This document shows, one piece after another, positions 11,270 to 24,039 of a DNA stretch of 64,000 nt. The notes under the pieces are model-generated. The model saw only the letters and a program-made list of their open reading frames with translations. It had not been told where the DNA came from and made no database searches. Both the position numbers and the translations under genes were made by a program. Each line of letters opens with the position of its first letter. Positions within the stretch are counted from its first letter, which is position 1. Source of the stretch: Rhodospirillales bacterium (GTDB lineage: Bacteria > Pseudomonadota > Alphaproteobacteria > Rhodospirillales > WMHbin7); contig JACRPC010000018.1 in NCBI GenBank assembly GCA_016214125.1, positions 1 through 64,000 on the forward strand, written 5' to 3'.

Positions 11270-12634
11270 ATGGATACCGTGAAGTACCTTCTCGACGAGA
11301 GCCGGATTCCGAAGAACTGGTACAACATCGCCGCCGATCTGCCCAAGCCGCCGCCGCCGGTGTTGCATCCGGGCACCGGCCAGCCGGTCGGCCCGGCCGA
11401 TCTCGAGCCCTTGTTCCCGATGGAGCTGATCCTTCAGGAAGTCTCGGCCGAGCGCGAAATTCAGATCCCCGAGCCGGTGCGCGAAATCTACAAGCAATGG
11501 CGCCCGTCGCCGCTTCATCGCGCGCGCCGCCTCGAGAAGGCTTTGGGCACCACCGCCAAGATCTATTACAAATACGAGGGCGTGAGCCCGGCGGGCAGCC
11601 ACAAGCCCAACACCTCGATTCCGCAGGCCTTCTACAACAAGGCGGCCGGCGTGAAGAAGCTCACCACCGAGACCGGCGCCGGCCAGTGGGGCTCGTCGCT
11701 GGCCTTTGCCGGCGCGGTCTTCGGCCTGCCGGTCGATGTCTACATGGTGAAGATCAGCTACCAGCAGAAGCCCTACCGCCGGGCGCTGATGGAAACCTAC
11801 GGCGCGCGCTGCGTCGCCTCGCCCAGCGAGGAGACTAACGCCGGCCGCACCATCTTGAAGGCCAATCCGAATTCGACCGGCTCGCTCGGCATCGCCATTT
11901 CGGAAGCCGTCGAGATGGCCGCCCAGGACCCCAACACCAAATACGCGCTGGGCAGCGTGCTTAACCATGTGCTGATGCACCAGTCGGTGATCGGCCTGGA
12001 AGCGATCGCCCAGATGGAAATGGCGGGCGACGACCCCGACATCGTCATCGGCTGCGCCGGCGGCGGATCGAACTTTGCCGGCATCGCCTTCCCCTTCCTC
12101 GGCCAGAACTTCCGCGGCGGCAAGAAGCGCCAGATCGTCGCCGTCGAACCGGCCGCCTGCCCGACCATGACGCGCGGCAAGTACGCCTACGATTTCGGCG
12201 ATACCGGCCATCTCACGCCGCTGGTCAAGATGCACACGCTGGGCTCGACCTTCATGCCGGCCGGCATCCATGCCGGCGGGCTGCGCTATCACGGCATGGC
12301 GCCGATGGTGAGCCACCTGCTCGAACTGGGGGCCATCAGCCCCGAGGCTTATAACCAGACCGAGTGCTTCGAGGCCGCCGTCACCTTCGCCCGCGCCGAG
12401 GGCATCGTGCCGGCGCCGGAAAGCTCGCACGCCATCAAGAGCGCGGTGGCGCATGCGCTCAAGGCCAAGGCCGAGGGCAAGTCGCCCACCATCTTGTTCT
12501 GCCTGTCGGGTCACGGCCATTTCGACATGGCCGCCTACACCGACTATTTCGCGGGCAAGCTGGTCGACGCGCCCTACGACCAGAAGGCGCTGGACAAGGC
12601 GCTTTCCGAATTGCCGAAGGTGGCCGCCGAATAA
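11270..12634 (+). CDS. TrpB2-type pyridoxal-phosphate enzyme (tryptophan synthase beta-like)
   Basis: 454-aa TrpB-like enzyme of the longer TrpB2 class. It has the N-terminal extension typical of that class, the PLP lysine K112 in SPAGSHKPNTS, and the phosphate-binding loop GCAGGGSNFAG. Conserved TETGAGQWGSS and ESSHAIKSA segments are intact. TrpB2 proteins make tryptophan from indole and serine and usually lack the interface for TrpA; no trpA is nearby. The tight linkage to iorAB suggests a shared role in indole/aryl-pyruvate metabolism, for example indole salvage, rather than the main trp pathway; this is inference. A strong terminator follows 25 bp after the stop. Confidence 0.88.
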   Translation: MDTVKYLLDESRIPKNWYNIAADLPKPPPPVLHPGTGQPVGPADLEPLFPMELILQEVSAEREIQIPEPVREIYKQWRPSPLHRARRLEKALGTTAKIYYKYEGVSPAGSHKPNTSIPQAFYNKAAGVKKLTTETGAGQWGSSLAFAGAVFGLPVDVYMVKISYQQKPYRRALMETYGARCVASPSEETNAGRTILKANPNSTGSLGIAISEAVEMAAQDPNTKYALGSVLNHVLMHQSVIGLEAIAQMEMAGDDPDIVIGCAGGGSNFAGIAFPFLGQNFRGGKKRQIVAVEPAACPTMTRGKYAYDFGDTGHLTPLVKMHTLGSTFMPAGIHAGGLRYHGMAPMVSHLLELGAISPEAYNQTECFEAAVTFARAEGIVPAPESSHAIKSAVAHALKAKAEGKSPTILFCLSGHGHFDMAAYTDYFAGKLVDAPYDQKALDKALSELPKVAAE

Positions 12635-12689: not shown

Positions 12690-15308
12690 TCAAAACACGC
12701 CCTTGTCGTTCAAGAACGGCGCGTAGCGGCGGTCTTCGGAGAGGATGTGGCTGGTGATCCAATCCTGGAGAATCGCCAGCACCTCGCGGTCGGCCTTGAA
12801 GTCGTTGGCGGCTAGGCGCAGGCCGATATCCTTCACCTGCTCGATCAGCTTTTGGTGCTTGTGCTGGTGGCCGTCGATCTCGGTGTAGCCATAGCGGGTC
12901 AGGAGCTGCTCCTCGGCCTCGAAATGATAGTGGGTGTAATCGAGCAGCAGACGCAGCGTCTCGCGGATCGATTGGGGGTCCTTGCCGGTTTGCACCGCCT
13001 CCAGCACCTGGTTGGTGATGTCGAACAGCTTCTGGTGATGGCCGTCGATCTTTTGGATGTTGACGCTGTATTCGGCCCGCCAGACCAGGGCGTTCTCGAC
13101 CTGGGTGCCGCTGCGCGCCACGGCGCGCAGCCGCTTCTCGAAGGTCTCGAACAGCTTCCAGCGCACGATGGGAATGTCGCGCAGAAGCGCGCCCGGCACG
13201 AAATCGACCTCGGTCACCTCGACCGCCTCGACATGGAACAGGCTGGGGGTGTCGAAGACCGCCACGTCCTCGCCGAAGAAATCGCCTGGCGCCAGCACGT
13301 CGATGACGTCGCCGCCCAGCATGCGCCGCACCTTGCCCGAGCGCACCAGGGCCAGTTCGCCCGTCTCGCGCGGATCGATGGTCTGGCCCGCCTTGTAGGC
13401 CAGCGGGCGCAACTTGGTGGCGATGCGGTTCAAGGTGGTGTTGGACAGCCCTTCGCCGAACAGCCAGGTGCGCCTAAGGAATTGGCGGCTTTCCTGCAGG
13501 CGCGAGATGTCGTCGAAGACGTTGTTGACGCGCACGAATTCGTTGTAGAGATCGCAAGGCAGCCGAAGGGCCTGGACGAAATTGAGCGCCCGGTAGGTGA
13601 CTTGCGAGGGCGCGCGGTAGAGGGCCACCATCTCGCCCAGCATGGCGCCGGCCGAGAGCACGTTGCGGATGCCGGTTTCGGTGTTGAGGCTTTCCACCGA
13701 GCCGGTGAGCAGCAGATAGACCTCGTCGGGAATCGCGCCTTCCTTGATCAGGATGGTCTCGGGATTGAACGACACCGTGCGGTTGTTGAGCAGCACGCGA
13801 AGCTGATGGCCGGGCACCTTGGGAAAATAGGCGGAAAGGAACTCATAGGCGTTGCGCCAGACGAAATCCTGGCGGCCGGGGATCAGCACGTCGACGGTGC
13901 CGAAGGGAGCGCCGGAGCCGATGGCGCGCTCGGCCTCGGTGAGCGGGCGGGCGATGTGGGAAAGGATGATCTTGCCCGAGCGGTCGTTCTTGAAATCCTG
14001 GGCGGCGCCGTGGATGAGGCCGCCGCCGATATCGACCTTCTTCACGTCGGCGGTGACGGCGTAATCGGCGGCAACCGCGTCGTACCATTCCTGGCTTAGG
14101 CCGGGCGCCTGGGCGTCGGCGGTAATCATGCCCTTCAAGACGTCGAGCGAGACGATGTCGGCCAGGTGGGCGTAGGTGCGCCAGCCACCCTCCCACAGGG
14201 CGCGGAAGAGGAAGATGCTGGTCTCCACCGGATGGGGCGAATAGATCGGCTTCACCCCCAGCCCGTCGATGTCGTTCCACTGGTCGAAGACCAGATCGCG
14301 GACGTCAAAATAATGGGCGAAGTCGTCTTCCTCGATGTCGAGCAGCGTCGCCAGCTTCTTGGCCACCGCGGCGCGCACCAGGGGTGTGGCGTAATATCTG
14401 GTGCGCTGGTCGGAGCGCATGAGCGAGGTCAGCCCGGCGAAATGGTCGTCGTGGGAATGGGTGTGGAAGATGCCGTCGATCTCGTTGATGCCGATGCCCA
14501 TCGCCTGCAGGCTGACATGGATGTTGGGGCCGGCGTCAATCAGGAAGATCTTGCCCTGGTACATCAGGATGCTGCCCATGCTGGGGCGGTTGATGTCCCA
14601 GCCGTCGCCGTCGCCGGTGTGCAGGACTGCGAAATACTCGCGCTTGACCTGGTGATTGCCCAAAGGATAGGGGGAATCGTAATTTTCGTGAGCGGCCAGA
14701 TTGAGATCGACGAGCGCGGTTTCGCCCTCGTAGGAAAACTCGAACCGGTTAAGCGCCAGGCGCCGGATGGCGACGCCGCCCGGCAACACCGCCGGCTCGG
14801 ATTCGATGAACTGGGTGTCGAGCAGCTCGCGCGGATGGCGGATGGCGCCGAAGGCGAATTTGAGCTTGAGCCGCATCATCGCCTTGGCCTTGGCCGGATC
14901 GATGCCGGCGTCGACCATCTCCTCTTCCGAGATCAGGCCGTAATTGCCGCGATAGATGTATTGCAACTGGGCGTTCACCTGGTCGCGCGCCCCGATCAGA
15001 AGCGGCTTGGCGCCGGTGTTGCAGGGATGGCCGGGCAGAATCATGCCCTGGCGGTAAAGCATCTGCAGGACCGGGAATTCGGCCAGATTGCAGAAGCTGC
15101 CGTTCTGCAGCATCACGTCGGAGAGCAAGATGGCGTTGGGGCCGGTTTCGTGGCCGACGCCATTGGTTTCGGTGGGCAGGATCAGGCCGCGCTTCATCAG
15201 ATGCTTGACGCTGTCGGCCGGACAGCCGCACAGCACGGAGAGGCCGGTGTCCGGTACCTCGATCCACCAGATGCCGGTGGCAACCTTGAGTTTGCGAAGC
15301 TTGCTCAT
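12690..15308 (-). CDS. Metallo-beta-lactamase / double cNMP-binding / hemerythrin fusion protein
   Basis: 872-aa multidomain protein. Residues ~1-200 are an unrecognised N-terminal region (Cys at 27 and 29). A metallo-beta-lactamase-fold domain (~220-480) has the metal motif HSHDDH at 284-289 and IYSPHPVE near 355. Two cyclic-nucleotide-binding-like domains follow (~500-600: ILIKEGAIPDEVYLLLTGSV; ~615-735: ELALVRSGKV, APGDFFGEDVAVF). A bacteriohemerythrin-like domain (~740-865) retains the probable di-iron ligands H758, H795, E799, H814, H818, H854 and D859. No transmembrane segment or signal is obvious, so it is likely cytosolic. A plausible role is an O2/NO-responsive hydrolase or sensor gated by nucleotide. 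It lies downstream of ecm with a 127-bp gap. Confidence 0.85.
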   Translation of the reverse strand: MSKLRKLKVATGIWWIEVPDTGLSVLCGCPADSVKHLMKRGLILPTETNGVGHETGPNAILLSDVMLQNGSFCNLAEFPVLQMLYRQGMILPGHPCNTGAKPLLIGARDQVNAQLQYIYRGNYGLISEEEMVDAGIDPAKAKAMMRLKLKFAFGAIRHPRELLDTQFIESEPAVLPGGVAIRRLALNRFEFSYEGETALVDLNLAAHENYDSPYPLGNHQVKREYFAVLHTGDGDGWDINRPSMGSILMYQGKIFLIDAGPNIHVSLQAMGIGINEIDGIFHTHSHDDHFAGLTSLMRSDQRTRYYATPLVRAAVAKKLATLLDIEEDDFAHYFDVRDLVFDQWNDIDGLGVKPIYSPHPVETSIFLFRALWEGGWRTYAHLADIVSLDVLKGMITADAQAPGLSQEWYDAVAADYAVTADVKKVDIGGGLIHGAAQDFKNDRSGKIILSHIARPLTEAERAIGSGAPFGTVDVLIPGRQDFVWRNAYEFLSAYFPKVPGHQLRVLLNNRTVSFNPETILIKEGAIPDEVYLLLTGSVESLNTETGIRNVLSAGAMLGEMVALYRAPSQVTYRALNFVQALRLPCDLYNEFVRVNNVFDDISRLQESRQFLRRTWLFGEGLSNTTLNRIATKLRPLAYKAGQTIDPRETGELALVRSGKVRRMLGGDVIDVLAPGDFFGEDVAVFDTPSLFHVEAVEVTEVDFVPGALLRDIPIVRWKLFETFEKRLRAVARSGTQVENALVWRAEYSVNIQKIDGHHQKLFDITNQVLEAVQTGKDPQSIRETLRLLLDYTHYHFEAEEQLLTRYGYTEIDGHQHKHQKLIEQVKDIGLRLAANDFKADREVLAILQDWITSHILSEDRRYAPFLNDKGVF

Positions 15309-15435: not shown

Positions 15436-17403
15436 TCATCGGGATGTATCGAGCAAATCCACAATCTCGGCCAGAATGGCGGTGAGGTCGTAATCCTTGG
15501 GGGTGAAGATGCGGGCCACGCCTTGGGCCTGCAAGCGGGCGGCGTCGGCGGGCGGGATGATGCCGCCCGCCACCACCTTGGTTTCCGACAGGCCGGCGGC
15601 CTTGAGGCCGTCGAGCACCTGGCCGATCAAGGGCATGTGCGAGCCGGAAAGGATCGACAGCCCCACCAGATGCACATGCTCCTCGAGCGCGGCGGCGACG
15701 ATGCGCTCGGGCGTTTGGCGGATGCCCTCATAGACCACCTCGATGCCGGCGTCGCGGGCCCGCACGGCGATCTGCTCGGCGCCGTTCGAATGCCCATCCA
15801 ACCCCGGCTTGGCGATCAGCATCTTCAACCGCCGGCCCTGGCGCTTGGCCAGCGCCTCGACCTTGGCCCGAAGCGCCGTCATCGATTCGCTGGCCGCGCC
15901 GCCTGCCGCCGCCGCGATGCCGGTGGGGGCACGGAACTCGCCGAACACCTGGCGCAGCGTTTGGCCCCATTCGCCGGTGGTGACGCCGGCATGGGCGCAG
16001 ACGATCGAGGGTTCCATGATGTTGGTGCCCTCCTTGGCGGCGCGCGCCAAAGCTTCGAGCGCCTTGCCGACCGCCTGGGCGTCGCGGCCGTCGCGCCAAG
16101 CGCGAAGCCGGGCGATCTGCTCCGCCTCGGCCTGGGGATCGACGGTTTGGATGGCGCCGCCGGCTTGGGTGAGCGGGCAGGGCTCGGTTTCGGTGAAGCG
16201 GTTGACGCCCACCACGACGCGCTCGCCCGATTCGATCGCCGCCAGCCGAGCGGCGTTCGATTCGACCAGGCGGCGTTTCATATAGCCTTCTTCCACCGCC
16301 TTGACGGCGCCGCCCATCTTGGCGATCGCCGCCAGTTCCGCTTGGGCCTGGGCGATCAGCGCCTCGACCTTGGCCGCCACCACCGGCGCGCCCGCAAAGA
16401 GATCGCCATATTCCAAGAGGTCGGTTTCGTAGGCGACGATCTGCTGCAGGCGCAGCGACCATTGCTGATCCCAGGGCCGGGGCAGGCCCAGGGCCTCGTT
16501 CCAGGCGGGAAGCTGGACGGCGCGGGCCCGCGCGTCCTTGGACAGCACCACCGCCATCATTTCCAAGAGAATGCGATAGACGTTGTTCTCGGGCTGGCTT
16601 TCGGTGAGTCCCAGCGAATTCACCTGCACGCCGTAGCGGAAACGCCGAAGCGCCGGATCGGTGATGCCGTAGCGCTCCTTGAGCAAGCTGTCCCACATCT
16701 CGGTGAAGGCGCGCATCTTGCAAAGCTCGGTGACGAAGCGGATGCCGGCGTTGACGAAGAAGCTGATCCGCCCGGCGACTTTGGGAAATTCGGCCGGTGC
16801 AATCTGGCCCGACGCCTGCAAGTGATCGAGCACCGCCAGCGCGGTGGCCAGCGCATAGGCCAGTTCCTGCTCGGGCGTCGCGCCGGCCTCCTGCAAATGG
16901 TAGGAGCAGACATTGATCGGATTCCATTTTGGAATCGCGCTGGCCGTGAAGGCGATAACATCGGAGGTGAGCCGCAGCGAGGGCCCAGGCGGGAAGATAT
17001 GGGTGCCGCGCGACAGATATTCCTTGATGACGTCGTTCTGGGTGGTGCCGTTCAAGGCTTTGCGCGGGGCACCTTGGCGCTCGGCGGTCGCCACATAGAG
17101 CGCCAAGAGCCAGGCCGCCGGGGCGTTGATGGTCATCGAGGTGTTCATTTGTGCGAGCGGGATGCCCTGGAACAGCGCCTCCATGTCGCCCAGATGGCCG
17201 ATCGGCACGCCGACCTTGCCCACCTCGCCCTTCGCCAGCGGATGGTCGGCATCCAAGGCGGTTTGGGTGGGCAGATCGAAGGCCACCGACAAACCGGTCT
17301 GACCCTTGGCGAGATTGCTCCGGTAAAGCTTGTTGCTTTCCAAAGCCGAGGAATGGCCGGAATAGGTGCGGATCAGCCAGGGCGCGTCGCGTTCAGGGGC
17401 CAT
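15436..17403 (-). CDS. ecm: Ethylmalonyl-CoA mutase (coenzyme B12-dependent)
   Basis: 655-aa acyl-CoA mutase. The large TIM-barrel domain opens WLIRTYSGHSSALESNKLY (the Ecm/MeaA branch rather than methylmalonyl-CoA mutase) with FDLPTQTALDADHPLAKGEVGKVGV. The C-terminal cobalamin domain carries the axial histidine H538 in GLDGHSNGAEQ (DxHxxG motif). It converts ethylmalonyl-CoA to methylsuccinyl-CoA in the ethylmalonyl-CoA pathway for acetyl-CoA assimilation. It is divergent from ccr-mcd, encoding the steps before and after it, which supports the assignment over methylmalonyl-CoA mutase. Confidence 0.92.
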   Translation of the reverse strand: MAPERDAPWLIRTYSGHSSALESNKLYRSNLAKGQTGLSVAFDLPTQTALDADHPLAKGEVGKVGVPIGHLGDMEALFQGIPLAQMNTSMTINAPAAWLLALYVATAERQGAPRKALNGTTQNDVIKEYLSRGTHIFPPGPSLRLTSDVIAFTASAIPKWNPINVCSYHLQEAGATPEQELAYALATALAVLDHLQASGQIAPAEFPKVAGRISFFVNAGIRFVTELCKMRAFTEMWDSLLKERYGITDPALRRFRYGVQVNSLGLTESQPENNVYRILLEMMAVVLSKDARARAVQLPAWNEALGLPRPWDQQWSLRLQQIVAYETDLLEYGDLFAGAPVVAAKVEALIAQAQAELAAIAKMGGAVKAVEEGYMKRRLVESNAARLAAIESGERVVVGVNRFTETEPCPLTQAGGAIQTVDPQAEAEQIARLRAWRDGRDAQAVGKALEALARAAKEGTNIMEPSIVCAHAGVTTGEWGQTLRQVFGEFRAPTGIAAAAGGAASESMTALRAKVEALAKRQGRRLKMLIAKPGLDGHSNGAEQIAVRARDAGIEVVYEGIRQTPERIVAAALEEHVHLVGLSILSGSHMPLIGQVLDGLKAAGLSETKVVAGGIIPPADAARLQAQGVARIFTPKDYDLTAILAEIVDLLDTSR

Positions 17404-23890: not shown

Positions 23891-23941
23891 TTGGCGGTTG
23901 GTTTGGGTTGATGGGTTCTGGCGGTCGGCGATGGCCCGAAC

Positions 23942-23971
23942 AAAAAAAGGGGCCGTGGAATACCACGGCCC
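23942..23971 (-). terminator. Intrinsic terminator of the candidate small RNA
   Basis: Minus strand: GGGCCGTGG, loop TATT, CCACGGCCC, then C and a run of seven T. The stem is perfect (23950-23958 with 23963-23971). Confidence 0.85.
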
Positions 23972-24039
23972 AAGTTTAGGGAGGAAACGTCCAAGAAAGC
24001 AGGCAAGAGGGGCATCGGGGAGACACCCCATTTGCTGCA
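23942..24039 (-). ncRNA. Candidate small RNA (~98 nt)
   Basis: The 480-bp space between the YeiH-like and transglycosylase genes has no credible coding frame. It contains a well-formed minus-strand transcription unit: promoter at 24046-24074, a start near 24039, a small hairpin (GGGG-TGTCT-CCCC), a CCUCCC tract that could pair with ribosome-binding sites, and a textbook terminator (9-bp stem, 4-nt loop, seven U). No known RNA family was recognised. Because it points at the YeiH-like gene, a leader/attenuator role is an alternative, although that gene has its own promoter downstream. Confidence 0.6.

Follow-up and report, generated by a model that had tools for sequence, protein, structure and literature searches.

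The stretch of DNA analysed here (the window, 64,000 nucleotides from a Rhodospirillales bacterium) carries an intact open reading frame on the minus strand at positions 12690-15308, which starts with ATG and encodes a protein of 872 amino acids. Pfam and NCBIfam profiles recovered all of the domains named in an initial annotation of this DNA, a metallo-beta-lactamase (MBL) domain, two domains of the cNMP-binding fold (cNBDs) and a hemerythrin (Pfam: Lactamase_B, 2.7e-8; cNMP_binding, 3.1e-19; Hemerythrin, residues 751-866, 5.9e-15), and the AlphaFold2 model of the full chain is confident (pLDDT 86.8, pTM 0.88). The features, all on the minus strand, are arranged as follows.

12690-15308, minus strand: complete open reading frame, 872 amino acids, with homologues of the same length
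14664-15308, minus strand: conserved N-terminal domain, residues 1-215, a predicted degenerate half-domain of MBL type that lacks HxHxDH
13875-14663, minus strand: catalytic-type MBL domain, residues 216-478 (H284, H286, D288, H289, H359, D384, H451)
14442-14459, minus strand: HSHDDH metal motif, residues 284-289
13473-13811, minus strand: first cNMP-binding-fold domain, residues 500-612; phosphate-binding cassette (PBC) GEMVALYRAPSQVTYRA, with Ser (S568) in place of Arg
13104-13463, minus strand: second cNMP-binding-fold domain, residues 616-735; PBC GEDVAVFDTPSLFHVEA, with Ser (S689) in place of Arg
12693-13097, minus strand: bacteriohemerythrin, residues 738-872 (H758, H795, E799, H814, H818, H854, D859)

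A methylmalonyl-CoA mutase-like gene with a B12-binding domain (15436-17403, minus strand) lies ~130 bases upstream on the same strand, and a TrpB-like gene, named from its sequence (11270-12634), is convergent with the open reading frame. No conserved operon was found around the loci of the family; their neighbours vary and indicate no pathway, and among 133 neighbour genes 11 encode receiver domains and several encode PAS, kinase, GGDEF or HD domains. No FNR-type site (TTGAYNNNNRTCAA) precedes the gene, and matches to this motif in the window occur at chance level. Elsewhere in the window, positions 23935-24020 on the minus strand match the suhB/mmgR small RNA family (Rfam, 62.1 bits; gathering score 41).

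Full-length relatives were collected from the order to which the window belongs, from GTDB genomes, where >515 loci were found and 80 of them named, and from a sample of the phylum; conservation was counted in 112 aligned relatives, in a separate listing (n = 81) and in the hemerythrin-bearing subset (n = 79). The same full domain order occurs in Alphaproteobacteria (including many Magnetospirillum and relatives), Magnetococcales, Gallionellaceae, Thermodesulfobacteriota, Campylobacterota, Nitrospirota, Nitrospinota, anammox Planctomycetota and one Poribacteria MAG, several of these occurrences being single MAG contigs, for which binning errors are possible. Cultured carriers include Magnetospirillum fulvum and Desulfonema magnum, and no plasmid copies were found. 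Because the full-length order is present in ~78 of the 80 named loci, and 56 of 299 genomes in the phylum sample carry the family, the architecture is not a chance product, and the rarity supposed for this exact domain order does not hold. No function is assigned to this family of >515 loci in the libraries searched.

Within the phylum sample, 56 copies reach the hemerythrin and ~66 end earlier, a few of the latter at contig ends, as counted by eye with three candidates scored per genome. Paralogues differ from this layout only in lacking the hemerythrin, and some genomes with paralogues of the Magnetococcales type (L131-L146) hold five or more family copies. Long open frames had hinted at other output domains at the C-terminus, but in the paralogues that were fetched these frames proved to be upstream read-through, and the proteins end after the second cNBD. 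A tree of the core domains, built by a quick method, requires hemerythrin presence to have changed at least five times: the domain is missing from a single deep clade of Magnetococcales type, and the remaining losses or gains are scattered. Thus, the invariant unit is the N-terminal domain, the MBL domain and the two cNBDs, with the hemerythrin as an add-on that is stable yet can be removed.

The metal motif HSHDDH was correctly annotated as intact. H284, H286, D288, H289, H359, D384 and H451 are invariant in all 112 relatives, as are the additional residues H381 and H433, and D287 is conserved in 81 of 81; the assignment of D384 and H451 as ligands follows from their invariance and their position after predicted strands rather than from residue alignment. 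The domain thereby has the HxHxDH motif and the later His, Asp and His of the MBL superfamily, along with its fold: residues 226-477 of the model match Apyc1 best (Z 24.1, rmsd 2.6, 220 residues), and the two top-ranking structures are both Apyc1 cyclic-NMP phosphodiesterases (Z 24.1 and 23.3). These are followed at Z ~22 by a GMP-bound Brucella MBL protein, a PhnP-family diphosphatase, PqqB and YhfI, and at Z 19.0 by yeast PDE1. Apyc1 also ranks first in a sequence search with the A2 profile (2e-7), and the score against the Apyc1 Pfam family PF23023 is 19-21 bits, under its cut-off of 50. As no more than 2-3 Z units separate Apyc1, PhnP, PqqB and YhfI, the fold match gives no substrate.

The statement that the first ~200 residues resemble nothing recognizable was accurate as far as sequence comparison goes. 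Residues 1-215 have no family match in Pfam, NCBIfam or other libraries, none in PHROGs and, when used as a profile against PDB sequences, none up to E 10. Nevertheless, the AlphaFold2 model of residues 1-500 (pLDDT 91.5, pTM 0.90) predicts a degenerate MBL-like domain here. ELAC2 could be aligned across model residues 1 to 477 (376 residues, Z 20.1, rmsd 3.9), the Foldseek TM-score by query rises from ~0.37 with single-MBL chains to 0.50 with ELAC2, and the modelled strand and helix order of residues 1-201 repeats that of residues 226-382, apart from the insertion of a hairpin and a helix. From these three observations, residues 1-215 are probably a degenerate second MBL (half-)domain, a model-based reading with no support from sequence: comparison of this domain with Apyc1 and with the MBL domain gave an hhalign probability of <1%, and an HMM search did no better than with shuffled decoys. 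A by-eye likeness to Apyc1 (KPLLIG...RGNYGL) was discarded on the same results. Mean pairwise identity is as high in this part of the protein (61% for residues 1-230) as in the MBL domain (62%), and amounts to 46 and 38% in the cNBDs and 34% in the hemerythrin. C27 and H94 of the N-terminal domain are invariant (112/112), and C29 (108/112) and H36 (107/112) lie within GCPADSVKH; these four residues possibly form an extra metal or redox site.

Both cNBDs exceed the PF00027 cut-off of 27.5 bits (residues 512-591, 47.6 bits; residues 648-711, 29.3 bits). In a gap-free alignment of the first domain with the SthK channel, S568 occupies the position of the Arg in GEMALILRAPRTATVRA, and in an alignment of the second domain with protein kinase G, S689 occupies that of its Arg, so that neither domain has the canonical ligand site, PBC Glu plus Arg (FGE...PR[AST]A). 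No Arg is found at position 568 among the residues listed for the 112 relatives, nor in the separate listing (0/81), and at position 689 it is present in 7 and absent in 105 of 112. The Glu of the PBC is mostly kept (E559, 83/112; E680, 108/112). As a control, the 12 best cNBDs elsewhere in this genome were compared, of which eight retain the PBC Arg. Because this Arg is missing in nearly all relatives, canonical cyclic-nucleotide sensing by the two cNBDs is unlikely, which speaks against the nucleotide signal that had been proposed to act through them; they may possibly bind another ligand or none. In the hemerythrin-free paralogues of the Magnetococcales type, the first cNBD often lacks the PBC Glu as well, a further degeneration of the cNMP site. 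PADLOC matches to TIR/Pycsar effectors were rejected as just weak cNBD matches.

All seven di-iron ligands predicted for the C-terminal domain (H758, H795, E799, H814, H818, H854 and D859) are present, each of them in 75-79 of the 79 hemerythrin-bearing relatives. With these five His, one Glu and one Asp, a score of 124 bits against NCBIfam bacteriohemerythrin NF033749 (cut-off 84) and a structural match to DcrH-Hr (Z 20.7, rmsd 1.4-1.5 A), the domain is a bacteriohemerythrin. The domain content and intact ligands support the annotated layout, in which an input and a hydrolase share a single chain. As an argument against a sensing role, the hemerythrin could be an O2 store. Ten further hemerythrin-like matches are found in the same genome, e.g., C18:94762-95181 and C12:71714-72127.

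The genome also encodes five class III cyclases. Such cyclases are present in 56 of 56 family-bearing genomes vs. 163 of 243 others (Fisher, 5e-9 by genome and 3e-5 by genus), a co-occurrence that is confounded by ancestry and that signal-rich genomes could mimic.

The reading that we prefer, to which we give somewhat less than an even chance, is an O2/NO-responsive enzyme of the MBL phosphodiesterase type, with a pseudo-dimeric core, a cNBD relay and gas input through the hemerythrin. The protein would signal from the cytoplasm as a soluble enzyme, and its core (residues 1-478) would be a class II (MBL-fold) phosphodiesterase-type unit arranged as a presumed intramolecular pseudo-dimer, the degenerate N-terminal MBL domain standing in for a partner protomer and the second domain bearing the two-metal site. 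The tandem cNBDs, which lack the Arg for the cyclic phosphate, would form an allosteric relay rather than canonical cNMP sensors, and the C-terminal bacteriohemerythrin would bind O2 (or NO) and, as a result, tune hydrolysis; we infer both the gas and the direction of regulation. The substrate would most likely be a cyclic mononucleotide. Class II enzymes, including Apyc1, YhfI, PDE1 and RNase Z, are homodimers, and the catalytic residues E74 and Y112 of Apyc1 come from the opposing protomer (PMC9117128), a dimer plan that a fused and highly conserved degenerate partner domain fits. Dictyostelium GbpA and GbpB, which are phosphodiesterases activated by cyclic nucleotide, consist of MBL, cNBD and cNBD (PMC11988041), and this domain order, judged against the text of that paper and not by sequence, is the one found here. 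The Apyc1 opposing-protomer plan and the GbpA/GbpB layout together point to a cyclic-mononucleotide phosphodiesterase as the likeliest single activity, a prediction whose chances perhaps fall a little short of even. The DcrH match of the hemerythrin, the co-occurrence with class III cyclases and the signalling genes among the neighbours also favour the preferred reading; against it stand the close fold ranks of the MBL families, the absence of a conserved operon that would name a pathway, the negative sequence comparisons of the N-terminal domain with the MBL domain, and the many paralogues without a hemerythrin.

Other explanations share parts of this evidence. An O2/NO-gated enzyme acting on another substrate of the PhnP/PqqB/arylsulfatase type (a phosphoester, sulfoester or lactone) would be consistent with the close ranking of PhnP/PqqB-type families and Apyc1 by fold; it is nonetheless unlikely, as Apyc1 comes first in the sequence profile and the cNBDs joined to the core are reminiscent of phosphodiesterases. 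A bacterial GbpA-like enzyme, in which the cNBDs would bind cyclic nucleotide non-canonically and stimulate hydrolysis, with the hemerythrin as a secondary modulator, would account for the domain order of GbpA/GbpB, for the retention of Glu in most PBCs and for the five cyclases of the genome. The cyclic-phosphate Arg, kept in most of the 12 other cNBDs of this genome that were compared, is absent from both domains in almost every relative, however, and we regard such an enzyme as quite improbable.

The match of ELAC2 over both halves of the core also suggests an RNA-processing nuclease akin to long-form RNase Z, i.e., a tandem MBL protein with a degenerate N-terminal half, under redox or O2 regulation, and the RNase Z profile (TIGR02651) gives 42 bits over the motif region. 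Since this score is far from the cut-off of 293 bits, the genome contains a separate RNase Z-like frame of 276 amino acids, and the distribution of the family is sporadic, unlike that of a housekeeping RNase Z, this alternative is very doubtful. The presence of an MBL fold and a di-iron domain in one chain had led to the suggestion of a flavodiiron-like O2/NO reductase. Flavodiiron MBL domains use HxExDH, whereas position 286 is His in 112 of 112 relatives, and no flavodoxin domain (Pfam, NCBIfam) or rubredoxin domain is present; the HxHxDH motif excludes flavodiiron chemistry, and the probability that remains for it is negligible.

No paper combining these domains was found, and the text of hemerythrin surveys names fusions to MCP, GGDEF and kinase domains but not the present one. 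One survey presents 56 hemerythrin architectures in a figure (PMC4919030), and an earlier listing of the present one among the 56 is possible. The individual parts are known, and the MBL-cNBD-cNBD plan has been characterised in a eukaryote (GbpA/GbpB), while the hemerythrin-bearing bacterial family with its degenerate N-terminal domain and loss of the cNMP Arg is apparently undescribed in the searchable literature. In M. gryphiswaldense, the transcript of a cNBD protein, MGMSRv2_1306, which may or may not be a family member, is higher at low O2 (PMC5459824). It is rather unlikely that these proteins, spread over phyla of microaerophiles and anaerobes, are the first cyclic-nucleotide phosphodiesterases to be governed by a non-heme di-iron sensor of O2/NO, with a bacterial MBL core of pseudo-dimeric build and with cNBDs that have turned from sensing a ligand to serving as a relay. 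If true, this would tie O2 or NO levels directly to second-messenger breakdown at oxic-anoxic boundaries, where Magnetospirillum, Magnetococcales, iron oxidisers, sulfate reducers and anammox bacteria dwell, and would suggest that the regulatory design of a slime mould has a bacterial counterpart; the cultured carriers make tests practical.

Among known systems, the nearest characterised design is that of GbpA/GbpB, class IIb cGMP/cAMP-stimulated phosphodiesterases in which two cNBDs likewise follow the MBL domain; the present protein differs in its cNBDs without the PBC Arg, its additional C-terminal hemerythrin and its bacterial host. Apyc1 and YhfI share the HxHxDH two-metal site and are nearest to the MBL domain in fold and sequence, but are homodimers of 240-250 amino acids without regulatory domains, whereas the present chain itself carries, fused in cis, a predicted degenerate domain of MBL type. 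ELAC2 is a tandem MBL protein, as the core is predicted to be, and is matched over residues 1 to 477 of the model; the present protein departs from it in falling far under the RNase Z cut-off. The hemerythrin has the seven di-iron ligands and the C-terminal sensor position of DcrH-Hr and other bacteriohemerythrins, but its fusion partner here is a hydrolase rather than an MCP. Hemerythrin-GGDEF proteins are also known, e.g., Vibrio cholerae Bhr-DGC; in those proteins, as proposed here, a hemerythrin governs a nucleotide second-messenger enzyme, which is a c-di-GMP cyclase there and would be an MBL hydrolase in this family.
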